Counted from the stretch's first letter, positions 21,763 through 33,683 are shown. The stretch is DNA of 33,683 nucleotides from Gemmatimonadota bacterium (GCA_009841475.1 VXLT01000272.1:1-33683); one strand, 5' to 3'. The notes: a model not told the origin generated them from the sequence alone. Translations and numbers: made by a program.

Positions 21763-22697
21763 GACGCGATCTCCGTCATCGACTCGAAGTCGCCCCTGGT
21801 GAGATCGATGAACACCTCTTCCAGGCTCTGACGGTGCGGTGCAAGGTACGACAGATGAATCCCCTTCCCCGCCAGGTAGCCGTTCACACCGGCCAGGTCG
21901 CCGCCCCTCAGCCCGACGATGATCCCGTCATCCGTGCGGCGCACCGAGGTCACCTCCGGGCAGTCCTCGAGCGCGGCCGCCAGCGCGTCTTCGTCCTCGG
22001 CGCGCAGCAGCGCCGACGTCCCCTCGCTCACCACCTCGTCCACCGTACCCTGCGCCACGATCCTCCCCTTGCGTACGATGGCGACATGGGTACAGGTGCG
22101 TTCGACCTCCCACAACAGGTGGCTCGAAAGGAAGATCGTCTTGCCACGGCCGGCCAGAATGTGAATGATCTCGCGGATTTCACGCATGCCTTGCGGATCG
22201 AGGCCGTTGGCGGGCTCGTCCAGGATGATGAGTTCCGGGTCGCTGAGCATCGTGGCCGCGAGGGCCAGGCGCTGCTTCATGCCGAGCGAATAGGTGCTGA
22301 AGCGGTGTTTGGCGCGGTCGGCCAGGCCGACGAGCTCCAGGCACTCCTCGATGCGCGAACGTCCCACTCCCTTGATCGCGGCGGCGACGCGCAGATTGTC
22401 GCGGCCGCGCATGTACGGATAGAAGTTGGGCGTCTCGAGGGTGGCGCCGACGCGTGAGCGAGCCGCCAGCAGCCCCTTCGCATCGGAGGCACCGAAGAGC
22501 CGGAAGCTGCCGCCGGTCGGGTTGATGATGCCGACCAGCATCCCGATGGTGGTGGTCTTGCCGCTGCCGTTCGGACCCAGGAAGCCGAACACCTGACCCT
22601 CTTCAACGGCGAACGACACCCTGTCCACCGCCAGGACGGACTTTTCGGGGCGCGTGCCGTAGCGCTTGGTCAGTTCACGGGTCTCGATGATGGGCAT
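21759..22697 (-). CDS. ABC-2 type exporter ATP-binding protein
   Basis: 312 residues. It has Walker A GPNGSGKTT, a signature-type motif in YSLGMKQRLALA, Walker B LIILDEPANGLDP and H-loop SSHLLWEVE, followed by the C-terminal domain usual for ABC-2 exporters (drug, bacteriocin or lipid export and copper-resistance NosF-like groups). The start ATG 22697 gives MPIIETRELTKRYG; open frame further upstream is not family-like. Its stop overlaps the permease start by 4 bases. With the permease interrupted by a stop codon, the transporter may be non-functional. Confidence 0.92.
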   Translation of the reverse strand: MPIIETRELTKRYGTRPEKSVLAVDRVSFAVEEGQVFGFLGPNGSGKTTTIGMLVGIINPTGGSFRLFGASDAKGLLAARSRVGATLETPNFYPYMRGRDNLRVAAAIKGVGRSRIEECLELVGLADRAKHRFSTYSLGMKQRLALAATMLSDPELIILDEPANGLDPQGMREIREIIHILAGRGKTIFLSSHLLWEVERTCTHVAIVRKGRIVAQGTVDEVVSEGTSALLRAEDEDALAAALEDCPEVTSVRRTDDGIIVGLRGGDLAGVNGYLAGKGIHLSYLAPHRQSLEEVFIDLTRGDFESMTEIAS

Positions 22698-22817
22698 GCA
22701 TGGACCCCGTGGAGAGTGGTGGGTGGAACAATGGAGGGTACGGGGGCCGACGCGGGCGTGTTTCAGCGGAGGCCGGCCGGCACGCCCTGTCCGGCGCCCA
22801 AGACCCGGCGAGGTCTC

Positions 22818-22846
22818 TTGACAACCGGTTACTGTGGTTGCATTAA
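22818..22846 (+). promoter_or_regulatory. Promoter-like sequence before the decayed brnT copy
   Basis: TTGACA at 22818-22823 followed after 17 bases by CATTAA, with the old brnT ATG only 26 bases after TTGACA. The same layout precedes the second copy at 33136, so transcripts may begin at or next to the ATG (leaderless). Confidence 0.45.
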
Positions 22847-22848
22847 CC

Positions 22849-22996
22849 ATGCAGATCGAGTTCGACGAGGCGAACGCGCGGACACCATCAAGACCCTTGG
22901 GCCGAAACAAACGCCCGCTGCCACGACGCACACAGGATCATCAGCATGAGGCAGGCCAATGAACGAGAACGACGGCTCCGAAGCCCGGGGTTTTGA
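22849..22996 (+). pseudogene. brnT: Decayed brnT toxin gene (internal deletion)
   Basis: Starts MQIEFDEA, matching the start of the second copy at 33168 (MRIEFDEA), then jumps to the nucleotides that encode the BrnT C-terminus (ending IISMRQANERERRL in one frame). About 120 bases of the toxin core present in the other copy are missing and the frame is broken. BrnT is a RelE-fold ribonuclease toxin; this remnant cannot make it. Confidence 0.8.
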
Positions 22997-23126
22997 TCCC
23001 GACACCGCTCCCGATCTCTCGAAGGACGACTGGCCGGAGAAGTTCCTCAAGGCCCCCGTACGCCGCGAGCGCCCCTCAAATGCGCGGCCGAAGGTAACGA
23101 CGAAGCCCACACGCGCCGGCCTGTGA
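22959..23126 (+). pseudogene. brnA: Truncated brnA antitoxin gene (55 codons)
   Basis: Encodes MNENDGSEARGFDPDTAPDL and continues closely matching the 85-residue BrnA at 33401 for about 46 residues, then diverges and stops at TGA 23124-23126. The C-terminal ribbon-helix-helix region that binds DNA in BrnA is absent. The stop overlaps the GTG start of the next gene, so translation of the remnant could deliver ribosomes to the oxygenase gene. Confidence 0.8.
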
Positions 23127-24295
23127 ACATCCCCAGCGCCTATGCGAGAGGATATGAGGCGGCCCGAGCCCTTGATCCCCAATTGGCGGAAGCATACGTC
23201 CGCCATACGACCGTCGGCGATCCCCTTGCGGACGCGGTGATCCGCGATCTGGGTTCCCTGTCTCCGGAGGAGATCCACGAGACCCTGGCCAGGGTGCTGG
23301 AGGGCGGCCCGGAAACGTCGCGCCACGACGTCCCCGATTCCCTACTGAATTCCGTCCAGGAAGCCGGAAAGACACCGGACTGGTTCGACAGAAGGCGCGC
23401 GCGCGTCGCTTCCCAGGCCTTTCTCCGCAACTCGGACATTGTCCTCGCGGCCCTCGTGGGCGGCAGCATCGTGGAGGGGTTCTCCACGCTGATCAGCAAG
23501 TCGTTTCGGATTCGGGGACGGCTCGTCGTCGCGGCCATACGCCGTCTCAAGCACAACGGCATGCAGTTGGTCGAGCAGTATCTCCCGGGCGGCATGGAGC
23601 CCGGGGGGGACGGATGGAGGCTGACGCTCCGGGCCCGCCTGGTGCACGCCCAGTCAAGGCATCTTCTCAACGGCTCCGACGAGTGGGACCGGGAGCGGTA
23701 CGGCATGCCTCTCAGCGCCGCACACGTGCTGTTGGCCGGCGCCGCCTTCTCGGGCCGCCTGATGAGGCACGTCGCCGCACTGGGGGGCGACTTCACGCGC
23801 GACGAGCGCGAAGCCTTCGTTCACGTCTGGCGTTACGCCGGAATACTGTTCGGCATCCCCGGTGAGATTCTCTTCAGCGACGAAGCCTCGGCGGTCCGAA
23901 CCTTCGAGATCGGCAGGATGTGCGAGCCTCCCACCGACCACGACGGGATCATCATGGCCAACAGCGTGGTGAACAGCGCGCCTATCATCGTCGGCATCAA
24001 GGCACCGCCGGAGCGCCGGAAGATGGCCCGCACGGTGACGCAGGTTTCCCGGGAGCTGATAGGCGACGAGCTCGCGGATTCGCTGAGATTCCCGCGGCGC
24101 AAACGGAGGGTGGTGCCGTGGCTGCGGTTCAGACACCGCGCCCGGCGCGTCGTCGGCAGGATGCTCCCCCGCGTGGCGGCGAAGCAGAACCAGGATCGAT
24201 TCGAGGCCTTGATGGAGTTTGCGAGCTTTGACGAGTTCGAGCACTCGTACAAGCTGCCGACGGCGCTTCATGATGAGCGGTCTTCGGATTGGTAG
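23123..24295 (+). CDS. MpaB-like oxygenase family protein (DUF2236)
   Basis: 390 residues. Family marks are LRARLVHAQSRHLL, YGMPLSAAHVL and REAFVHVWRYAGILFGIP, which include the conserved histidines of the DUF2236/MpaB family (relatives include fungal MpaB and latex-clearing Lcp proteins, heme b oxygenases). An oxidative cleavage function is possible, but the substrate cannot be told. The GTG start overlaps the truncated brnA stop; the N-terminal YARGYEAARALDPQLAEAYV looks native, so the coding region seems intact despite the junction just upstream. Promoter supply was probably changed by the brnTA rearrangement. The tRNA-Pro fragment begins 13 bases after the stop. Confidence 0.82.
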   Translation: MNIPSAYARGYEAARALDPQLAEAYVRHTTVGDPLADAVIRDLGSLSPEEIHETLARVLEGGPETSRHDVPDSLLNSVQEAGKTPDWFDRRRARVASQAFLRNSDIVLAALVGGSIVEGFSTLISKSFRIRGRLVVAAIRRLKHNGMQLVEQYLPGGMEPGGDGWRLTLRARLVHAQSRHLLNGSDEWDRERYGMPLSAAHVLLAGAAFSGRLMRHVAALGGDFTRDEREAFVHVWRYAGILFGIPGEILFSDEASAVRTFEIGRMCEPPTDHDGIIMANSVVNSAPIIVGIKAPPERRKMARTVTQVSRELIGDELADSLRFPRRKRRVVPWLRFRHRARRVVGRMLPRVAAKQNQDRFEALMEFASFDEFEHSYKLPTALHDERSSDW

Positions 24296-24305
24296 GGGGC
24301 AATTT

Positions 24306-24494
24306 CAATCGGGGCGGCCGGATTCGAACCGGCGACCTCCGGCTCCCAAATCCCCCACACGGGACGCGAAATCACGGCAAGAAATCTCATAAGTCTAACT
24401 GGGACTGCACGATCTGCGCTTCTTGCCGTTCGGGCGTGTCAGGGTCTGCGGGGCTGAAAAAGCCGGAAAACCGGGTCAAATGGAGGGCATTTGG
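24306..24494. repeat. 189-bp direct repeat, copy 1 (tRNA-Pro 3' half plus attachment-like flank)
   Basis: Matches 27058-27246 over 189 positions with no gaps and about 9 mismatches (roughly 95 percent identity). It begins with the tRNA-Pro 3' half on the minus strand and continues with about 145 bases that include a perfect 10-base inverted repeat: ACGGCAAGAA 24374-24383 and TTCTTGCCGT 24420-24429. Identity stops abruptly at 24494. The layout fits attachment-site junctions of two related integrated elements. Confidence 0.85.
24309..24350 (-). tRNA. tRNA-Pro(UGG) 3'-half fragment (not a complete gene)
   Basis: On the minus strand it reads from the anticodon loop (TTTGGGA, anticodon TGG), through stem GCCGG, variable AGGTC, T-arm GCCGG-TTCGAAT-CCGGC and acceptor CGCCCCG to discriminator A. 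No CCA is encoded. The matching 5' half of tRNA-Pro does not precede it. It is therefore an integration scar, not a functional tRNA. Confidence 0.75.
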
Positions 24495-24495
24495 C

Positions 24496-24535
24496 CGGAT
24501 TGACAGCTGGTGCTCCAATCCGCTCAGCCACCCCG
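24496..24535 (-). other. Hairpin and tRNA 5'-half-like sequence next to repeat copy 1
   Basis: CGGATTG 24496-24502 pairs perfectly with CAATCCG 24516-24522, with AGC/GCT nested inside. On the minus strand 24535-24510 reads like a tRNA acceptor and D-arm (CGGGGTGGCTGAGCGG then ATTGGAGCACC). It is absent from repeat copy 2. It does not assemble into a sound tRNA with the 3' half. Confidence 0.4.
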
Positions 24536-24563
24536 GCCGGTAGCTTTCAGGACCATCCGCTGG

Positions 24564-24815
24564 CTACCGCCAGGCGATCCAGAGAACGAGTTCAGGAACC
24601 CACTGGACCGCCTGCTGAACGAGGGCGAGGATCACAGCCGCCACGCAGACGCTGGCCCACCACTCACGCCACCACTCCCGGCGACGCTGCCGTCCGTGCT
24701 CTCGAGCGGTTGCGCGGAAGAACTCACCGGCTTCCTCCTCAGATCCGAAAGACCGGCTGATCCCAAGGGCATCGGTTTTGCGGAAGTCCGGGAGCTTCGT
24801 CTTCTGCTCGCTCAT
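24564..24815 (-). CDS. Small single-pass membrane protein, unknown function
   Basis: 83 residues. The first about 45 are polar and charged (MSEQKTKLPDFRKTDALG at the start, REHGRQRRREWWREWW later), followed by one hydrophobic helix (about 50-75, ASVCVAAVILALVQQAV) and a Trp-rich end. I do not recognise a family. The ATG lies 21 bases after the stop of the next gene upstream on the same strand, suggesting a two-gene unit. An inverted repeat GGTAGC/GCTACC straddles its stop (24539-24568) and may end transcription. Confidence 0.6.
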   Translation of the reverse strand: MSEQKTKLPDFRKTDALGISRSFGSEEEAGEFFRATAREHGRQRRREWWREWWASVCVAAVILALVQQAVQWVPELVLWIAWR

Positions 24816-24836
24816 GAGGATCAGTCCAGTAGGCTC

Positions 24837-25178
24837 CTATCTCCAGACCCATGTGTCGATACCGTTGACTTGATGATGCCGATCCCAGTGTCTCTCGATC
24901 AACTGAGCAATCTGGCGATCTGTCTCGCGCCGCAGCACTCGCCGCCACGCGTAGTCATCGCCTAGACCGCGCCCTTCCTCGTCCTCGGCGAACAGGTGCG
25001 ATAGGTTCAGCAGGGGTTCGAGGGCGTTGATGTCCCGCTCGTCGTCCGTCAGTTCATAGAGGCCCATCTCTGACAGGACCCGCTTGACCAACCTGGGGAC
25101 GGTGAATGAGGTCAACAGCAGGTGCTCGCGAACGCCCCACTGCGATGGCAGTACGCTCTCGCTGTGGCCGTGCGCCAA
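24837..25178 (-). CDS. Unknown protein, probably 5'-truncated
   Basis: About 113 residues if read from TTG 25178; no good start codon or ribosome-binding site is visible. The part from about GVREHLLLTSFTVPRLVKRV to the end (GIDTWVWR) has the look of real protein, with alternating hydrophobic and acidic helices (GLYELTDDERDINALEPL, HLFAEDEEGRG). The frame continues upstream only as Arg/Pro-rich shadow of the propeller gene. It may be the C-terminal remnant of a longer element gene cut at a junction near 25.2 kb. No family recognised. Confidence 0.45.
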   Translation of the reverse strand: MAHGHSESVLPSQWGVREHLLLTSFTVPRLVKRVLSEMGLYELTDDERDINALEPLLNLSHLFAEDEEGRGLGDDYAWRRVLRRETDRQIAQLIERHWDRHHQVNGIDTWVWR

Positions 25179-25207
25179 GTTCCCGCGGCAGATGTGTAGC
25201 CCAAGCG

Positions 25208-26551
25208 GTGCGGAGGACGAGGGACGCGGACGAGCAGGGATCGCTGTTCGCCACGCCGGAGCGACGTCCAGGATCCCCTCCGCTCCTGCCCCGGCCGGCC
25301 GCGTGCCTCGTCGTCGTGGCGTCGTTCCTCGCCCTGCCCGCGTGTGACCGGCATGGCGACGAGGCCGCTCAGGGAGAGGCCCCCCAGGAAACGGTGACCG
25401 TCCGGGATTCGGCCAACATCCGGATCGTCGAGAATCATGCCCCCGCATGGGATCCCGCCCGCTTCTGGACGGTGGACCCCGAGCCGGAGATCGTCATCGG
25501 CGGGAATCGCGCGTCCCAGGCGGCCGACGATCCCGCTCATCTGCTGTGGCGGCTAAAGGGGGCCGCGCTTCTTTCGGACGGGCGGCGGGTGGCCGTGCTC
25601 TCCGGTGGTGAGCCATGGGTGCTGGTCTTCGACACCACGGGCGCCCTTGCCGCTGCATTCGGGCGCAAGGGGCAAGGCCCCGGCGAATTCTCCTATCCCC
25701 TTCACCTTCAGGTTCTTCCTGGGGACACCATCGTGGTCTGGGACCGAATGTGGGGTCGGATCGGCCATTTCGATCCATCAGGAACGCTCCTGAGGGATCG
25801 GACCCTCGACCTGGGCGCGGTGTTCGCCGCGGCGCAGACGCCGGAGCAACGCCTGGGTGAGTCGATGGCCCTGCCCCTTCCGGACGGAACGTTCCTGGTT
25901 GACGTCAAGCCCGGGGATTGGACTCCCGTCATCGACACGCGCTACAGGGTTCCCACTGGCTTCCTGAGGGTCGACTCGGCCTACGCCACGCACTCCTTCG
26001 GGTGGTGGGACGGCCAACAAGTACTCGCGACTCGGCTACCTGTCCCCTTGCTCTTCCCGACCGAAGCGGTGTTGGCTGCGGGGGGAAGTCCCCTTTCGGT
26101 GTACATCAGCAGCGGAGACCGATATGAAGTTCACCAGTTCTCCCCGACGGGTGTCCTTCGCCGAATCATCAGGCGCACGGCGGTGGAGCCGATCCCCATC
26201 CTCGCCTCGGAAGTGGAGGCCTGGAAGGCGCGGCTGTCCATGGAGGGACCTTTGGATTGGGACGCGTGGGATCGGGTCGTGGCGCGCAATCCGCCGAGAC
26301 CGTACCGCGCGAGGGTCGCGGGGCTGATGACCGACATCGACGGGAACCTCTGGGTGGCGAACCGGCTGGACGAGCAGTCGAGCGAGTGGAGCGTCTTCGA
26401 CCCGGAGGGCCATTGGCTGGGGACGATGTCGCTGCCGTTCGGCCGAGTCACCTGGATCACGAGGGATCGCATCGTCGGGGTGCTGACCGACCCCGACACC
26501 GGCGTGGAGTCGGTGGCGGTCCACCGGCTGAACCGCACCGCGCCGCGCTGA
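25208..26551 (+). CDS. Six-bladed beta-propeller lipoprotein
   Basis: About 447 residues if started at GTG 25208, which is uncertain because the usual short signal peptide begins later. A hydrophobic stretch ending FLALPAC gives a lipobox. The mature protein then starts TVTVRDSANIRIVENHAP, followed by FGRKGQGPGEFSYPLHL and repeated beta segments such as DIDGNLWVANR. This matches the six-bladed propeller (NHL-like) lipoproteins numerous in Gemmatimonadota and relatives, of unknown role. It lies on the strand opposite to the two small genes before it and overlaps no other supported gene. Composition is similar to the backbone. Confidence 0.72.
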   Translation: MRRTRDADEQGSLFATPERRPGSPPLLPRPAACLVVVASFLALPACDRHGDEAAQGEAPQETVTVRDSANIRIVENHAPAWDPARFWTVDPEPEIVIGGNRASQAADDPAHLLWRLKGAALLSDGRRVAVLSGGEPWVLVFDTTGALAAAFGRKGQGPGEFSYPLHLQVLPGDTIVVWDRMWGRIGHFDPSGTLLRDRTLDLGAVFAAAQTPEQRLGESMALPLPDGTFLVDVKPGDWTPVIDTRYRVPTGFLRVDSAYATHSFGWWDGQQVLATRLPVPLLFPTEAVLAAGGSPLSVYISSGDRYEVHQFSPTGVLRRIIRRTAVEPIPILASEVEAWKARLSMEGPLDWDAWDRVVARNPPRPYRARVAGLMTDIDGNLWVANRLDEQSSEWSVFDPEGHWLGTMSLPFGRVTWITRDRIVGVLTDPDTGVESVAVHRLNRTAPR

Positions 26552-27057
26552 GCCGGGCGCCTGTCTTGCCCACCCCAAAGCTCGGCTAACGCTATTCAGA
26601 TAGGTCCTGCCAAACCCCGGTCGCCGCCATGTGGACCACGAGTTCGCGCCCGAAATCGGTGAGCGCATTCGACCATGCTCGGGAGTCCCGCCAATTGACT
26701 CCGGTTTTCCCGCTTTCCCGACCCGACACGACCGAACTTGGTCCAACGGCAAGAGTGGCAGATTCAGTTCGACGTTGGCGGACGTTGGCGGACCTCGTGA
26801 TGATGGCAGATGTTCAGGGTGTTGGGCATAGACACGGGGGTCCGCGGTGCCGCTATTCGATCCTCCAGCTAACCACGTACTCCTCGTCGAGAACACCCCG
26901 CAGAATCCCTGCGCGCTTCGGCGCGGGAGGTCTTGGGGGTCGAGCGCCCCGACGAGGACCGGCTCAGAAAGGCCATCGAGGAGTACCGGGGGGTTGGCTC
27001 CGCGTCCAATTAGCGGACATAGTTAGCGAACATCGAACCCCCCAAATCCCGTAACTC
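26552..27057. other. Non-coding or degenerate stretch, with a possible C-terminal gene remnant
   Basis: 506 bases without a supportable intact gene. Frame 26873-27013 on the plus strand encodes a plausible C-terminal tail (AREVLGVERPDEDRLRKAIE then EYRGVG) that lacks any start and is preceded by a stop. It could be a remnant of an antitoxin-like or other small protein. The rest shows no clear motif. Confidence 0.3.
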
Positions 27058-27246
27058 CAATCGGGGCGGCCGGATTCGAACCGGCGACCTCCTGCTCCCA
27101 AATCCCTTACACGGGACGCGAAATCACGGCAAGAAATCTCATAAGTCTAACCAGGACTGCACGATCTGCGCTTCTTGCCGTTCGGGCGTGTCTGGGTCTG
27201 CGGGACTGAAAAAGCGGGAAAATCGGGTCAAATGGAGGGCATTTGG
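27058..27246. repeat. 189-bp direct repeat, copy 2 (tRNA-Pro 3' half plus attachment-like flank)
   Basis: Gapless match to 24306-24494, offset 2752 bases, including the 10-base inverted repeat (27126-27135 and 27172-27181). Sequence on both outer sides differs from copy 1. In the tRNA part the anticodon stem reads GCAGG instead of GCCGG, so the two scars derive from slightly different tRNA-Pro versions. Confidence 0.85.
27061..27102 (-). tRNA. tRNA-Pro(UGG) 3'-half fragment, second copy
   Basis: Same extent as the first fragment: anticodon loop TTTGGGA, stem GCAGG, T-arm and acceptor CGCCCCG, discriminator A. No 5' half is adjacent. It marks a second integration junction. Confidence 0.75.
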
Positions 27247-27326
27247 AGGGGTCCCTATGCCTTTTGGACCATCCACGAGGCGGACCAAATGCTTGGCAGG
27301 AAACCAACACGCGTAATCGCTCAGGC

Positions 27327-28142
27327 TCACTCGCGGTCTTGCCCCATCACCTCAATCAACCTTCGACAGACGGGTTCCTGGACCACCTGCTCGCGGCATC
27401 TCTCGTCACCCAGGAGTTCGCGCAACAGATACTCAGCCCATTCGTGCTTCGCCGTCCTGAAGTCCCCCCGTATCTTGCGGAACACGGAGGGCCTCGGTTC
27501 GCTGGCCCTGGCCGCGCTCACGGCCGGCTGAATCACATCGCGATCGAGTCCTCCCGACCTGGACCACCGGGGCCAACCAGGAACCCGTCTTCCCACCACT
27601 CCGAGCGCCCTTCGCACACCCCCCTCGCATGCCATCAAGACCGACTCAAACATCGGGTCCATGCAAACGGTCAGGACCGTAGCTGACATCGGGGGAGGTG
27701 GCCGTTGGCGGATGGCAGGACTCGGGCGCGCTCGAAGCTCCGCATATCGAGACGCAGCGTTCTCCCGCCAGCTTGTTGGGAGCACCTCGCTTCGCGACAG
27801 GTGCCTATACAGGTCCACGCATTCCTTCCATCGGCAGGTATCTGCGTCCGGATCCCAAGGCGGCAGAAGGTCCCATGCCACGATAGCCACGTCAATGCCG
27901 TCGCCCTCGATCTCTCGAAGGATCAGTTCATCGAGACCTATCGACGCGCCACTCATGACCGGGGAACTTGGATCCATCGTGACAAGAGTCCGCTTGTCGA
28001 TCGGGACGACGCGAGCGATCGGCTGCAACCCCAACTCACGAACCAAGAGCTCGCGCCACAGTTTCTCGAAGGGATCACCGCGCCGTGTCGGCTGTCCCCG
28101 GCTGCCTTCCGCGAAGAGCACGATGGTTGGCAGGGATGTCAC
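27327..28142 (-). CDS. Putative TOPRIM/DUF4276-like partner of the AAA ATPase
   Basis: About 271 residues. A conserved-looking start TIVLFAEGSRG (Glu12) is followed by IDVAIVAWDLLPPW (Asp91) and a DPDAD cluster (97-101), an arrangement that could form a TOPRIM-type metal site. VLTVCMDPMFESVLMACE resembles the CMExW segment of DUF4276 proteins. No database check was possible, so the family call is tentative. GTG 28142 is chosen: it follows AGGGG by 4 bases and comes 7 bases after the ATPase stop. TOPRIM-like proteins next to ABC-class ATPases act as nuclease effectors in several anti-phage systems, such as PARIS AriB or OLD-type systems. Here that is inference from arrangement. Confidence 0.55.
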   Translation of the reverse strand: MTSLPTIVLFAEGSRGQPTRRGDPFEKLWRELLVRELGLQPIARVVPIDKRTLVTMDPSSPVMSGASIGLDELILREIEGDGIDVAIVAWDLLPPWDPDADTCRWKECVDLYRHLSRSEVLPTSWRENAASRYAELRARPSPAIRQRPPPPMSATVLTVCMDPMFESVLMACEGGVRRALGVVGRRVPGWPRWSRSGGLDRDVIQPAVSAARASEPRPSVFRKIRGDFRTAKHEWAEYLLRELLGDERCREQVVQEPVCRRLIEVMGQDRE

Positions 28143-28149
28143 CTCACCC

Positions 28150-29412
28150 CTACTCGCGGTTGCCTTCCATGACGTAGATGGAACCCGGAGGAACTCGGCC
28201 CTGATATCGTTTGACCGCTTCTCGATCGGCAAAGCGAGCGTATCGGGTCTCGCCCTCCGAACGGGTAACCTCCAGAATGTCCTGGACGCGCACGCTGTCG
28301 AGCAACCACGGCGAGTGAGTCGTCACGATCACTTGAACGCCACGCTCTGCCGCAGATTGGAGCTGCTCCAGAACCGCGATCACCGTCCAAGGATCAAGCC
28401 CGTTTTCGATCTCTTCGATGCAAAGAAGGGAAGGAGGAGGGTCACGTTGCAGGAGGGCGAGGATCGCGGTAATCCTCCGAGTGCCTTCCGACAGCATCCA
28501 CGCTGGTACGGCCAACTGGTACCTGCCGGTTCGCCCACGATAAGGCATTCGCTCTTTGAGCGAATAGAAGACCCGCTCGTCCCGCCCCATGGTCGGCTGG
28601 GATACCTCGACGCCCCGGATGTCGGGAAGAATGCGCCGTATGGCAGCGATGAGGTCCTTGGTCTGATCCTGGTCGAGTTCGTTCAAGAGAGCAGGCAGGT
28701 TTTGCCCCTCCTCATCCAACAAAGGCTCGAACGAGCGTCGCCGTGCGTGTGATCCTCGTGACAAGCGGTTTGGACTCAACCGTAAGAACACGGCTCGATC
28801 CCAGAAATCCTGAAGGCGTCCCAAGAACCCTGCGGGGGAAGATGCCTGGTTGTCAGCATCACTAACGGACGCACCCACCCGGGCCAGAGCCAGCCGATCC
28901 GGCTCAGTAAACCAGACGAGGCCGCCACCCCGCTCCCCGGCGCCAGGATCATCAAAACTCACCACACGGCGTCCCCTGTCGTCGACCGACCGTACCACAT
29001 CGACCGGATCGCCGCCGTCCTTCTTGACGCTGAGCCTCTCACTCATGACGGCAGGAGTCGCTCCATCCTCAGATTCACGCACCTTGAGTGTGTACGACAC
29101 CGAAGTTTCGGCGACCGGCTCACGCCAAGAGATGTCGATGCAGAAATAGGGGATCTGCGTCCGCGAGCGGAGATTAATCAGGTCATGGACACCATGGTAC
29201 CGTTCCGACGCTGCCCTCGCATCCTGCCGTATCGTGCCGTCGAGCCATTGGAGTGCTTCCAGTAGTGTGCTCTTCCCAGTCCCGTTGCGTCCAATGACCA
29301 CGTTGAACCCGCCCAACCGGATGGGATCGGGCTTGAAAGCCGCCTTGAATCGCTCGAGGCGCACCGCCACCAACGAGAGAGTGGATTGAGGGTCGGATTG
29401 GGATGGAGGCAT
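28150..29412 (-). CDS. AAA family ATPase, ABC/OLD/RecF-like
   Basis: 420 residues. The N-terminus has LVAVRLERFKAAF and Walker A GRNGTGKST (41-49). After a long insert comes an ABC signature-like LSEGTRR, Walker B SLLCIEEIENGLDP and switch histidine TTHSPWLLD. This is the AAA_21/AAA_15 class found in OLD nucleases, AriA and many defence operons. The protein has no C-terminal TOPRIM domain of its own, unlike class 1 OLD; the next gene 7 bases downstream probably supplies the effector. It is preceded by a 302-base gap and the HNH-like gene. ATG 29412 has only a weak ribosome-binding site. Confidence 0.88.
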   Translation of the reverse strand: MPPSQSDPQSTLSLVAVRLERFKAAFKPDPIRLGGFNVVIGRNGTGKSTLLEALQWLDGTIRQDARAASERYHGVHDLINLRSRTQIPYFCIDISWREPVAETSVSYTLKVRESEDGATPAVMSERLSVKKDGGDPVDVVRSVDDRGRRVVSFDDPGAGERGGGLVWFTEPDRLALARVGASVSDADNQASSPAGFLGRLQDFWDRAVFLRLSPNRLSRGSHARRRSFEPLLDEEGQNLPALLNELDQDQTKDLIAAIRRILPDIRGVEVSQPTMGRDERVFYSLKERMPYRGRTGRYQLAVPAWMLSEGTRRITAILALLQRDPPPSLLCIEEIENGLDPWTVIAVLEQLQSAAERGVQVIVTTHSPWLLDSVRVQDILEVTRSEGETRYARFADREAVKRYQGRVPPGSIYVMEGNRE

Positions 29413-29714
29413 GGTAGCGCGTCGATAGGTCCTCGGGCTGCGGATCCTGCCTTGAACAGGAGCACTGAAGGAATGATGATGTCGGCCAGAGAATCTGGCG
29501 AACCGACAGCAATGACTGCAAGCACCGAGGGATCAGAAGACCTTCGGTACTCGCACCACCCCCGCACCTCGACGGCACCGCGTCCGCACGTCAGCACCAG
29601 GAGTCACCAACCGTCACTGTGACCCAAGTCGTGACACTCGGAGGCATCGAGTGCGGCAGTCCGAGAACTAGGCGAGGCCCAAGCTTCCCGGCACACCAGG
29701 GTGGGTGGCGGGGA
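29413..29714. other. Gap between HNH-like gene and ATPase gene
   Basis: 302 bases with no gene I can support. Short minus-strand frames run into the ATPase but lack starts and family features. It may hold a separate promoter for the ATPase pair; no clear -35/-10 is visible. Confidence 0.3.
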
Positions 29715-30158
29715 TCACGAAGATGAAGCTTGAGCGCCGAGGAGAGTCTCACAGAACGTTCGGAGTTCCTCCACGGTGAGATCGTTCTTACAGTCGTTCG
29801 TTCTCCAGCCACAGATCCGGAAGTCCGCTCGCTTCGATTCGGGATCCGCATGATCGACGGTCGGAAGGAGGGCGAATCGCTTCTTGTACTTGACGCCCTG
29901 GCGTTGGCTATCCCGGTTGTCGTATTGGCTGATGAGGGACCAGTCCAACTCCTCGTGGGTGTAGAAGTCTCGACCGCTGGACTCCAAGACAGCCCGATGG
30001 ATGGCCTGCTTGTAGCTGGACACGCGTATGGGCAGGTTCCATCTCCTCCTGTCACGGCGGGCATGCGCCCGTGCCTTGCGATGAAGCCACCGGACGTAGA
30101 CTTGGCGGGTGACTACCGCGTCGTCGAGAAACGGTGGCAACTCGTACTTGATAGCCAT
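29715..30158 (-). CDS. HNH-like small protein downstream of the restriction-modification gene
   Basis: 147 residues. The N-terminal half is basic (WLHRKARAHARRDRRRW). The C-terminal half contains ALLPTVDHADP, then ADFRICGWRTNDCKNDLT and EELRTFC, an order of His, Asn and Lys like a zinc-free HNH (beta-beta-alpha metal) nuclease. The ATG lies 26 bases after the restriction-modification gene stop, so co-transcription is likely. It might be an accessory nuclease or specificity partner. I recognise the motif arrangement but cannot name the family. Confidence 0.55.
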   Translation of the reverse strand: MAIKYELPPFLDDAVVTRQVYVRWLHRKARAHARRDRRRWNLPIRVSSYKQAIHRAVLESSGRDFYTHEELDWSLISQYDNRDSQRQGVKYKKRFALLPTVDHADPESKRADFRICGWRTNDCKNDLTVEELRTFCETLLGAQASSS

Positions 30159-30184
30159 GCGTGGTCCGGTCTTCCGTCGAGCGA

Positions 30185-33031
30185 TCAGCGCTGGTTGCGT
30201 TCCAGCAGGCCCTTCAGGGCCGCGTCATCCATGATGTCGGCGGGCCAGCCGTAGGCGGCGGCTACGGCGGCATCGAGTCGGGTGTGGGCGTCGGACAGCC
30301 ACTGTGGCCGAGCGTTGTAGAGGTTGGTGAGGGTCCGCTTCTTGAGTGCCGTCGCCGCCTTCTTGTCCCGCGGCACCGGACGCCGGGGATAGCCGGGAGA
30401 GGGCTCCTCGACCCACTCCACCCAGTCGGGCGGGTTCAGCCACCGATCACGGAGTGCGACGAGTCGCCGCGCTGCAGAAGCGATGGTCTGCGCGCGTGGG
30501 TCTGTGACGTAGTCAGTCGCGGCACTGTCGGGCGAGAGCCCGTCCGGGAAGGGGAAGGTCTCGAAGGTCGTGGTGGGGGTGTAGCGGGGACGGTCCTCCA
30601 AGCTGGTCCCTTTGCGCAGCGCCCAGACCTCGTGGAACCGGCTGTGCAGGATCCCGAAGGTGGTGTCGTCGTCGCGGGCGATGACGATCAGTTGGTGGTC
30701 GGGACAGACACGAGCATCGAGCCATGCGAAGAGGCGGTGCTTCGCGACAGTGGGCGTGACGATGTACCGCGATAGGCCATCAAGGGCGCTCCACATCCCC
30801 TGTCTTGGCTCGACATGCCGCCACCAGTTGCGGCGGTAGGACTCGCGACGATTCCGCTGTCGCATCGGGTGAACGTACTCCTGCGCGTGCTGGAACGGAG
30901 CTTCGTACAGGGCGGCCTCTTCCCTCACCATCGTCCAGCCGAAATCGACGATCCACTTGTCTGCGGGTCTCCGGGTGACGGCCATACCGTTCATCCACGG
31001 CCTAAGCACGTCCGAGTTGGGACGGCCGTTCGGATTCAAAGGCTCTTGCAGCCACTCTCGGGCCAGCTCGCCAGGGACGTCGAACGGCCCGCCTTTGGTG
31101 TCGCCCATGAATGCCACCCCCGAGTTCCGGTCGAGCCGCCGGGCCTTCGTAAGATCAACGCCGACCCCGCCGCGGCGTGCTGACAGATCCGTGTAGATCT
31201 CGTCCACCGTCCGGCCATCAAGCCGTCGCCCCGAGGCGAGTTCGTCGTCCGACTGAGAAAAGCACACCAGCGAAACGCGGACGGCCGCTCCATCAATCAC
31301 CCACGGCTCGTCACTCCAAGCGTCGAAAATCGGCCGGCCGTCTGTCGCCTTCTCCAGCGCCCGCCGATTCGCACCACCCCTGATGGAGTTGGTCGCCACC
31401 AAGCCAACCCGTGTCGAGCCGCTTTCCTGCAGATGGTCGCCAGCCTTCACGAACCAATAACAGACCAGATCTGCCTCGCGGGGCACCCGGCCCTCGTACA
31501 CCTCGAACATGGTCGAGACGTACTCCTCCCCGAGATTCGTGATGAGCAGTTTCCCGCCCAGGAAAGGCGGGTTGCCGATGATGACGTCGGCCTCGGGCCA
31601 CTCCGGCTCTGCACCTGTGGGCGTCAGAATCGCGTCACGACACTCGATCGTCTCCAGCGGGTCGAGGACGGGTTGCCGCGACCCCGGAAACCCGTTGCGG
31701 CGCATCCATTGGATTTCGCCGATCCACACCGACACGCGCGCGAGTTCGGCCGCGTAGGCGTTCAACTCGATGCCCTTCACGTTCGCGGGACCGACCGACG
31801 GGAAGCCGCGCTGGAGCCCCATCGCCTCTGCCTCCAACTGCACCCGGTGTTCCAAGTCGTGGAGGGCGTGGAGCGCCAGGTAGAGGAAGTTGCCGGACCC
31901 GCAGGCGGGATCGAGCACGGTGAACCGCCGCAACCGCTCCAAGAATGCACCCAGCAAATTCTCCGCCCGCTTTCGGTGGCGCGTCTCTGCACCCTTTGAC
32001 TTGGCTGCGCTCGCGCGCTCGATGCTCTTGGCAATCCCGGCCTTCGTGGTTTCCCACTCGGCCAGCAGGGGACGAACGATCACCGGGTCGATGATCCGCA
32101 TGATCTTGTCCCGGTCCGTGTAGTGCGCCCCGAGCTGAGACCGCTTGTCGGGGTCGAGGCCCCGCTCGAAGAGCGTCCCCAGGATCGAGGGGTCGATGTT
32201 GGACCAGTCGAGTTCAGACGCTTGCAGGGTCGTCTCGATCTGGGCCTTGTCCATGGGTAGGGTCGCGTCATCCTCGAAGAGCCCGCCGTTGAACCAATCC
32301 ACCGTCTCAAACCCTACCCTGCCCCCGACGGACATCGCCCCGAACAGGTCGCGCGCCAGCGTCGCGAAGTCATCAGGCCGCTGCCGGGCGTGTTCGAGCA
32401 TGCGGGTGAACATGGCGTTCGGGAGCAGTCCCACATCCTCGGCGAACATGCAGAAGACGAGGCGGTTGACGAAGTGAGCCACCTCCTCCGGGGGGTGGCC
32501 CTGGTCTCGGAGCGACTGAGCGAGCTGCGCGAAGGTCTTGGCGGCGCGTTCCGTGAGAGTCTGCCGGGTCTCACCCGGCCGCAGCCGCTCTGGATCGGAC
32601 ATCGCCCACTTGAGCTTGTCCCGTACGGCAGCGTCCGCGAGATCGTCCAGTTCGAACTCGTGGGTCTTGCTCACTGAGTTCGTCCAGTTCGTCCGGATCC
32701 GAAACCGGCGCATGTCCGAGACGATCAGGAGAGGCGGGTTCTCCAGCGCGAGCGCGTACTGCCTCAACTGGTCGAATGCGGCGTCGAGGTTGGCGTGCTT
32801 CCCCTTGTATTCCCAGGCGAAGCAGTGGCGCTTCCACACGTCCGCCCAGCCTCCTCCCCCGGAGTCCTTGAGGGCTCCGCGCTCGAAGCAGTAGTGGTCC
32901 CCCTTCGGGTCGGCCTCCGCCGGCGTGGGTGCGTCAAGCAAGCGGCACAGGTCGATGAAATGCTCCTGTGCTGCGGAGCGTTCCTTCAGCTCCGAGGCGT
33001 GCCACTTCGTAATGAACTCTTGGGGAGTCAC
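30185..33031 (-). CDS. MmeI-like (type IIG/IIL) single-chain restriction-modification enzyme
   Basis: 948 residues, close to MmeI in length. The N-terminal nuclease has a D-x9-E-x-K site (Asp64, Glu74, Lys76 in WADVWKRHCFAWEYKGK), the spacing known for MmeI. A helical spacer with GAHYTDRDKIMRIIDPVI leads to the methyltransferase: motif I DPACGSGNF (374-382) and motif IV NPPF (487-490), the N6-adenine type. A target-recognition domain and C-terminal helices follow (TTTFETFPFPDGL, then AYGWPADI). Such enzymes modify one strand of a short asymmetric site and cut about 20 bases away. The GTG start follows GGAG by 4 bases. It faces away from brnTA across a 104-base gap. Confidence 0.92.
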   Translation of the reverse strand: MTPQEFITKWHASELKERSAAQEHFIDLCRLLDAPTPAEADPKGDHYCFERGALKDSGGGGWADVWKRHCFAWEYKGKHANLDAAFDQLRQYALALENPPLLIVSDMRRFRIRTNWTNSVSKTHEFELDDLADAAVRDKLKWAMSDPERLRPGETRQTLTERAAKTFAQLAQSLRDQGHPPEEVAHFVNRLVFCMFAEDVGLLPNAMFTRMLEHARQRPDDFATLARDLFGAMSVGGRVGFETVDWFNGGLFEDDATLPMDKAQIETTLQASELDWSNIDPSILGTLFERGLDPDKRSQLGAHYTDRDKIMRIIDPVIVRPLLAEWETTKAGIAKSIERASAAKSKGAETRHRKRAENLLGAFLERLRRFTVLDPACGSGNFLYLALHALHDLEHRVQLEAEAMGLQRGFPSVGPANVKGIELNAYAAELARVSVWIGEIQWMRRNGFPGSRQPVLDPLETIECRDAILTPTGAEPEWPEADVIIGNPPFLGGKLLITNLGEEYVSTMFEVYEGRVPREADLVCYWFVKAGDHLQESGSTRVGLVATNSIRGGANRRALEKATDGRPIFDAWSDEPWVIDGAAVRVSLVCFSQSDDELASGRRLDGRTVDEIYTDLSARRGGVGVDLTKARRLDRNSGVAFMGDTKGGPFDVPGELAREWLQEPLNPNGRPNSDVLRPWMNGMAVTRRPADKWIVDFGWTMVREEAALYEAPFQHAQEYVHPMRQRNRRESYRRNWWRHVEPRQGMWSALDGLSRYIVTPTVAKHRLFAWLDARVCPDHQLIVIARDDDTTFGILHSRFHEVWALRKGTSLEDRPRYTPTTTFETFPFPDGLSPDSAATDYVTDPRAQTIASAARRLVALRDRWLNPPDWVEWVEEPSPGYPRRPVPRDKKAATALKKRTLTNLYNARPQWLSDAHTRLDAAVAAAYGWPADIMDDAALKGLLERNQR

Positions 33032-33135
33032 CGTTCTCCGCGTGTCGAGAGGCTCCTGTCGATCTCCTCCTCAAACTTCACCGCCCAGCCGGGATTATGT
33101 CCATTCCCGCCGTCCACACCAGACGCCCGTCGTAC

Positions 33136-33164
33136 TTGACAGCCCATTTTCTGTAGTAACATTA
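33136..33164 (+). promoter_or_regulatory. Promoter-like sequence before brnT, possibly leaderless
   Basis: TTGACA at 33136-33141 and ACATTA at 33159-33164 are separated by 17 bases. The brnT ATG is at 33168, only 3 bases after the -10 element, so the transcript would start at or beside the ATG. The arrangement is conserved in the decayed copy at 22818. Confidence 0.5.
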
Positions 33165-33167
33165 ATC

Positions 33168-33438
33168 ATGCGGATCGAGTTCGACGAGGCAAAGCACGCG
33201 GCGACGCTCAAGGCCCGAGGGCTGGACATGGCCCGCGCGGAGGAGGTGTTCGCCGACGCCACGCTGACCGTCGAGGACGACCGGCAGGACTACGGCGAGG
33301 TTCGCTACATCACCATCGGCTTTTCTGGACGAAGCAATGGTGGTACTCGTCTGGACACGCCGCGACGACGTACACAGGATCATCAGCATGAGGAGGGCCA
33401 ATGAACGAGAACGACGCCTCTACGGCCCGAGGTTTTGA
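33168..33438 (+). pseudogene. brnT: brnT toxin gene with a one-base frameshift
   Basis: The first about 52 codons encode MRIEFDEAKHAATLKARGLD, AEEVFADATLTVEDDRQDYG and VRYITIGF, the normal BrnT N-terminus. At the T-run 33321-33324 the frame shifts: as written it ends in unrelated sequence at 33404, while one T fewer gives GFLDEAMVVLVWTRRDD and then RIISMRRANERERRLYG, the conserved BrnT C-terminus, ending at TGA 33436-33438. BrnT is a RelE-like ribonuclease toxin neutralised by BrnA. Either the toxin is inactivated or the extra T is a sequence error. The 3' end overlaps brnA by 38 bases. Confidence 0.85.
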
Positions 33439-33658
33439 CCGCGACACCGCTCCCGATCTCTCGAAGGACGGCTGGCCGGAGAAGTTCGCCAAGGCGCCTG
33501 TACGCCGGGGCCGTCCCCCAAAGGCGCGGCCGAAGGTATCGACCACCATCCGGTTGTCCCAAGGGGTCATCGACCATTTTCGCGCCGGAGGCCGGGGCTG
33601 GCAGACGCGGATCGACCACGCCCTGCGGGACTGGATCAAGCAGAACGACGTTGCTTGA
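33401..33658 (+). CDS. brnA: BrnA antitoxin
   Basis: 85 residues. The N-terminal part (MNENDASTARGFDRDTAPDL) is acidic. After a basic linker (RRGRPPKARPK) comes the ribbon-helix-helix type region VSTTIRLSQGVIDHFRAGG and GWQTRIDHALRDWI, the BrnA hallmark. BrnA binds and neutralises BrnT and represses their shared promoter as a complex. AGGAGG lies 5 bases before ATG 33401, inside brnT. The protein is intact, unlike the 55-codon copy at 22959. Confidence 0.92.
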   Translation: MNENDASTARGFDRDTAPDLSKDGWPEKFAKAPVRRGRPPKARPKVSTTIRLSQGVIDHFRAGGRGWQTRIDHALRDWIKQNDVA

Positions 33659-33683
33659 CAGTGCTTGACGTTTGGCAGGGTCG

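Follow-up and report, generated by a model that had tools for sequence, protein, structure and literature searches.

Known integrative elements at tRNA genes

Lambda-type systems usually carry arm sites beside their att cores and have an integrase that regulates its own expression. When phage lambda integrates, its sib site is parted from int; the action of sib also involves RNase III. In sib retroregulation, int is controlled from a site downstream of it (Schindler and Echols, 1981, cited in PMC5300877). Islands at tRNA anticodon loops with lambda-type tyrosine recombinases were described by Williams (2002) and Campbell (2003), both cited in PMC8371274. The same paper explains the use of anticodon loops for attachment by the 7-bp overlap that they offer between palindromic arms. 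Tandem integration has been described for the SGI1-type IME (PMC2297512), and tycheposons have been described in Prochlorococcus and also in Methylophilaceae (PMC10872708).

A locus related in kind to these systems was analysed in a Gemmatimonadota genome, where two integrative elements probably lie in tandem at a tRNA-Pro gene. SGI1 is similarly a mobilizable island with tandem integration, but we know of no hairpin family in SGI1 of the kind found here. Its target also differs, being the 3' end of trmE (PMC8409611). As described, tycheposons resemble the present elements in being cargo-carrying elements of aquatic bacteria that use tRNA genes and tyrosine recombinases; the elements studied here differ in having the hairpin family and in targeting non-tRNA palindromes as well. 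A likeness in architecture exists with the IMEs and islands of tRNA anticodon loops (PMC8371274), which share the 7-bp overlap in anticodon-stem-loop arms, the tRNA restored on the integrase side, the displaced half on the opposite side and tandem accretion. In contrast to those islands, a single recombinase family is present here at very high copy per genome, both orientations of the tRNA half are used as well as non-tRNA palindromes, and the distal hairpin is complementary to the leader of the integrase gene. Tandem tRNA islands are ordinary in kind, while the scale of the family and the link between hairpin and leader are unusual. The Palauibacterales genome paper makes no mention of integrases or genomic islands, and no description was found in other open-licence literature.

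Two probable attachment junctions at tRNA-Pro(UGG)

The window, meaning the whole stretch of 33,683 nucleotides that was analysed (GCA_009841475.1, VXLT01000272.1:1-33683), makes up one complete contig (C41); the assembly comprises 369 contigs and 4.18 Mb. The genome is Candidatus Palauibacter-like, and from general knowledge of the clade and the Palauibacter papers we take its members to be sponge symbionts, whose genomes are filled with islands of one recombinase family. The first-pass annotation of the window had noted two 189-bp direct repeats of about 95% identity at 24306-24494 and 27058-27246. These align without gaps and with sharp ends at 9 mismatches in 189 positions (95.2% identity), a match well beyond chance (BLAST E = 1.9e-82). 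Each repeat begins, as had also been noted, with the minus-strand 3' half of tRNA-Pro(UGG) from the anticodon loop outward, and these first 45 nt are 98% identical to the genome's intact tRNA-Pro(UGG) on contig C339 (ARAGORN on L006/L050). No complete tRNA was found in the window by ARAGORN. The 10-base inverted repeat reported for the flank is real and corresponds to a stem of about 10 bp (ACGGCAAGAA / TTCTTGCCGT) that closes a 61-nt hairpin in both copies. The features of the locus are listed below.

24306-24350, minus strand: copy 1 tRNA-Pro(UGG) 3' half, acceptor end to anticodon-loop spacer; probable outer junction, adjoining a chromosomal mpaB-like gene
24339-24355, plus strand: copy 1 putative att core CCGGC TCCCAAA TCCCC (5-7-5), as chromosomal arm, 7-nt overlap and element-specific arm
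24370-24430, plus strand: copy 1 61-nt hairpin, 10-bp stem and loop with GGACTGCACGATCTGC (alignment A1, stem covariation)
24431-24494, plus strand: copy 1 arm-like segment with AGCGGGA-type motifs, kept in dispersed copies; putative arm-binding role
24495-27057, no strand: inner element A, about 2.6 kb, a remnant with no intact integrase, bounded by the copy 1 hairpin and the integrase-proximal motif before copy 2
25106-26551: six-bladed beta-propeller gene, in element A
26672-26755, minus strand: further copy of the flank within element A, inverted and truncated to the hairpin's right half and the arm-like segment; read from the sequence
26942-27010, plus strand: C-terminal remnant of a tyrosine recombinase, 23 codons, in element A (tblastn)
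27040-27057, plus strand: integrase-proximal att flank of element A, AAATCCCGTAACTCC; the motif also follows the integrase on C339 and in many other elements
27058-27102, minus strand: copy 2 tRNA-Pro(UGG) 3' half; probable internal tandem junction of elements A and B
27091-27107, plus strand: copy 2 putative att core CCTGC TCCCAAA TCCCT (dyad geometry)
27122-27182, plus strand: copy 2 61-nt hairpin, the probable distal end of element B (alignment)
27183-27246, plus strand: copy 2 arm-like segment (repeat alignment)
27247-33683, no strand: visible part of element B, which presumably runs past the contig end at 33683
28150-29412, minus strand: AAA_21 ATPase, element B (Pfam)
30185-33031, minus strand: MmeI-type restriction-methylase, element B (Pfam)
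32925-33658, plus strand: BrnT/BrnA toxin-antitoxin pair, element B (Pfam)

A search of the rest of the genome for an intact tRNA-Pro(UGG) and a neighbouring tyrosine recombinase gene, as the first-pass annotation had proposed, located both on C339. The order on this contig is RdgB-like and Lnb-domain genes, intact tRNA-Pro, tyrosine recombinase and relaxase. The recombinase (387 aa) is encoded on the opposite strand and ends about 53 bp beyond the tRNA. Matches of the recombinases were to PF00589 (E = 4.5e-17 and 9.6e-20), to a PHROG integrase family (3.6e-52) and, in the PDB, to lambda Int. With recombinase genes about 50 bp from an intact tRNA, a tyrosine recombinase thus adjoins att, as in lambda-type integrative elements. 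The relaxase is MobA/VirD2-like (PF03432, E = 2.2e-5; MbeA model, E = 3e-13, far below that model's cut-off). The earlier statement that no recombinase gene is present holds for intact genes in the window, but the full gene lies on C339, and the 23-aa remnant in element A is 96% identical to the integrase of a tRNA-Pro element (tblastn E = 2.6e-9). The remnant's stop is about 45 bp before copy 2 and is followed by the integrase-proximal motif AAATCCCGTAACTC, which was found after the integrase in many elements. Since remnant and motif both precede copy 2, this copy is read as a tandem junction between the distal end of element B and the integrase end of element A.

Element B would be split over C41 and C339, which are not joined in the assembly. 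The link between them is supported by synteny with a relative (G012), in which a single contig contains mpaB, a half tRNA-Pro with hairpin, a 4-kb island, an integrase remnant, an intact tRNA-Pro, Lnb and RdgB. From this order it also follows that copy 1 would be the outer junction and copy 2 the internal one. A half-tRNA with hairpin is found beside mpaB in the relatives G012, G020 and G011, and the same junction of integrase end, half-tRNA and hairpin occurs in the single-contig relative G001. No empty tRNA-Pro/mpaB site was found among the relatives. A mirror-image arrangement was found at tRNA-Ile, where the intact gene has an integrase at its 5' side on one contig (C331) and the 5' half with a hairpin is on another (C304).

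Copies 1 and 2 are thus very probably the distal att junctions of two related, probably mobilizable integrative elements in tandem at the tRNA-Pro(UGG) anticodon loop. This agrees with the earlier proposal of two related elements stacked at one tRNA gene, which now has the G012 gene order and the integrase remnant in its favour. The tandem anatomy was seen by sequence comparison, and we infer from it that recombination occurs, or once occurred, in this way.

Geometry of the att core

The position of the core was determined from spacing and from a dyad in the sequence before the hairpin. Over 69 distinct flanks, complementarity peaked at a dyad centre 22.5 nt before the hairpin (2.21 of 5 positions, vs about 1.3 elsewhere), a position that fits a 17-bp core (two 5-bp arms around a 7-nt spacer) with 14 nt between core and hairpin; the copy 1 core was placed on this basis. 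Among 31 candidate elements in relatives, the 20 that share an att core at both ends were taken as complete. These 20 elements are 3.2-15.7 kb long and have 9-41 bp common to both ends, ending 14-19 nt before the hairpin. An identical core is present at the hairpin end and the integrase end of each, with a tRNA half at tRNA targets. In the window's own element, the matching core at both ends is seen only across the two unjoined contigs.

Targets in complete elements include tRNA-Pro and tRNA-Arg; tRNA-Ile is represented by paired ends on two contigs, and tRNA-Val was seen at an integrase end. The non-tRNA targets are palindromes such as CTGCCAAAATGGCAG and others resembling CCCTGACGTAACGTCAGGG, as well as apparent 3' ends of genes. 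A 5-7-5 rule that covers both tRNA loops and unrelated palindromes means that one recombinase family can diversify its targets.

In the proposed mechanism, a lambda-type tyrosine recombinase, whose gene lies at the end opposite to the hairpin, would recombine a 17-bp site that is laid out like an anticodon stem-loop, with two 5-bp inverted arms and a 7-nt overlap. The element would bring its own tRNA half, so that an intact tRNA gene remains on the integrase side while the displaced half is left at the far side. Copy 1 would be the outer chromosomal junction beside mpaB. Copy 2 would join element B, on the right, to element A, whose integrase has decayed to 23 codons.

Two further insertion sites were noted. 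In one locus (L057, contig C161, about 2700-2830), a hairpin copy abuts a cytochrome P450-like CDS cut near FGAGNHRCLG, apparently a protein-gene target. Five loci from different genomes (L252, L255, L259, L260 and L261) have one recurring target, GCGCCGGGCTGGCA preceded by CGAGCACCGAGAGCGG, perhaps another repeat.

The flank as a dispersed family

The 145-base flank described in the first-pass annotation is indeed common to both repeats, but it is composed of the 61-nt hairpin and the arm-like sites and recurs at other places in the genome. A genome search with the last 125 bp of the repeat identified about 18 copies, mostly away from tRNA genes. The dispersed copies consist of the 61-nt hairpin and then a segment with AGCGGGA-like motifs; related motifs also occur in integrase-proximal positions. 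Hairpins were scanned for with an nhmmer profile. Occurrence throughout the genome away from tRNA genes had been named as evidence against the att reading. Such copies do exist, but in each of the 20 complete elements the copy is accompanied by an att core of its own at constant spacing, and the dispersal therefore generalises the att reading without refuting it. The flank is not specific to tRNA-Pro; a large family of elements shares it as a conserved distal end.

The family is widespread. In a sample of 59 genomes, all 22 other members of the genus had the repeat, which was also present in two further genera of the family. The exact 16-nt sequence of the loop was present in 34 of 149 genomes of the class, including a second family, while its reversed control gave 0. 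Integrase matches per genus genome ranged from 4 to at least 19 scored. Records of related genomes bear the names Gemmatimonadetes, BD2-11 clade or Candidatus Palauibacter. Several integrase loci come from records with a Gammaproteobacteria label (RHO1_bin_70, SB0675_bin_31 and others); these bins probably belong to the same Gemmatimonadota group and were mislabelled.

The hairpin and the integrase leader

The 10-bp stem forms in 90.9% of cells over 65 copies, vs 36-60% in slid controls. Seven of the 10 stem pairs are changed on both sides, with 44 such cells vs 12.9 ± 7.5 in shuffles. This outer stem was named by the analyst; the RNAalifold consensus on alignment A1 chose a different, weak structure. 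A 16-nt block in the loop is nearly invariant across copies and is better conserved than the stem. Its exact reverse complement, GCAGATCGTGCAGTCC, precedes the integrase start and lies directly ahead of the likely ribosome-binding site; 69 of 103 distinct integrase leaders have it exactly. Information in the leader is high across a 19-nt stretch that is sharply bounded. Relative to the ORF upstream, the block is found in each of the three reading frames and is therefore not conserved as protein. No Rfam match was found to E = 1 in window positions 22000-33683.

Cognate leader and loop pair fully, by Watson-Crick or G-U pairs, in 19 of 20 elements, which were picked for their common att core and are not independent on a tree. 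In all eight elements with variant leaders the pairing is retained by G-U pairs, and in two of these the loop has changed to match. The leader variants G13A, G13C and C11G would break pairing with the standard loop. In two elements (L310 and L213), leader G12 and the loop C change together, a co-change that fits RNA pairing and a shared, co-evolving protein site alike. A loop with GGAGTGC (G094) and a leader with GCACTCC (G003) both exist, and in the stretches examined their cognate partners were not found; the same applies to the leader GCAATCC. In a further locus (L216:455-515, minus strand), a reversed hairpin copy lies about 40 nt upstream of an integrase that has no usual leader block. 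The complement of this hairpin supplies a leader-like block, a possible rearrangement between the two sites.

In the inferred circular form, the distance from the integrase stop to the hairpin is 108-122 nt (median 120) in all 20 elements. The loop would be able to pair with the integrase leader in the circle, and integration would separate hairpin from integrase, as with lambda sib. The likeness to sib is that an element able to form an RNA hairpin lies downstream of the integrase across attP and is moved to the opposite end by integration (20/20 inferred circles). Unlike sib, the present loop is complementary to the integrase leader, and the hairpin follows the integrase at 108-122 nt in the circle. 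By this analogy the hairpin may work in a way resembling sib, and it is not classed as a sib-type retroregulator. Its most likely function, held tentatively, is that it restrains integrase expression from the excised circle. A more specific proposal, put forward with somewhat greater reserve, is a sib-like antisense switch in which a structured RNA at the distal att end would pair with the leader of the integrase mRNA and silence the integrase in the circle, possibly also in trans between the numerous islands and stranded ends of a single genome. An RNA or DNA signal between the far att end and the integrase leader is a clear, testable hypothesis and, if true, would help to explain why co-resident elements do not excise together.

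Alternative explanations

The 16-nt block might instead be bound as DNA by a protein of the element (the integrase, an excisionase or some other) at both the distal att arm and the site upstream of the integrase, in an autoregulatory role, with the stem incidental or protein-binding. This explanation deserves serious consideration even if it is rather less than probable. Leaders and hairpins show the same substitutions (12 A to G, 13 G to A and 3 A to G, in leader orientation), as if one protein tolerates them, and a protein using both sites would give the leader-loop match equally. Arm sites next to att cores and integrase autoregulation, being usual in lambda-type systems, are also in keeping with it. 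However, it leaves unexplained the covarying 10-bp stem, which leader copies are seen by inspection not to have, and the constant antisense orientation in complete elements; the leader site is also about 1.2 kb from the core.

It is unlikely that the hairpin does no more than end or stabilise transcripts that read through from the integrase gene in the circle, or that it is an oriT-like or cruciform DNA structure, with the leader match due to shared ancestry. A stable, conserved hairpin at a constant distance after the integrase in the circle would suit such a role, but no T-run follows the hairpin, and the 16-nt block is conserved above the stem, in both places and with sharp edges. That the repeats are dispersed MITE-like or REP-like sequences, landed by chance near tRNA fragments, is very improbable, and this reading was rejected on the fixed att geometry. 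The many genome copies, most of them not at tRNA genes, would favour it, but the 14-nt distance to an att core common to the integrase end is fixed in the 20 complete elements, and the tRNA-Pro and tRNA-Ile halves stop at the anticodon loop at the same distance. An identity as integron attC was likewise rejected: the palindrome ends do not have RYYYAAC/GTTRRRY core boxes, and crossover would be in the core 14-19 nt away.

Minor features of elements A and B

The cargo of element B, comprising the ATPase, the restriction-methylase and the toxin-antitoxin pair listed above, is of defence type. Just inside element A, beside copy 1, a sequence at 24509-24534 (minus strand) resembles a tRNA 5' half (GGGGTGGCTGAGCGGATTGGAGCACC...). 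An interrupted tRNA or intron was considered for copy 1 and rejected, as this sequence is not the 5' half of tRNA-Pro and has no other copy in the genome within 3 mismatches.
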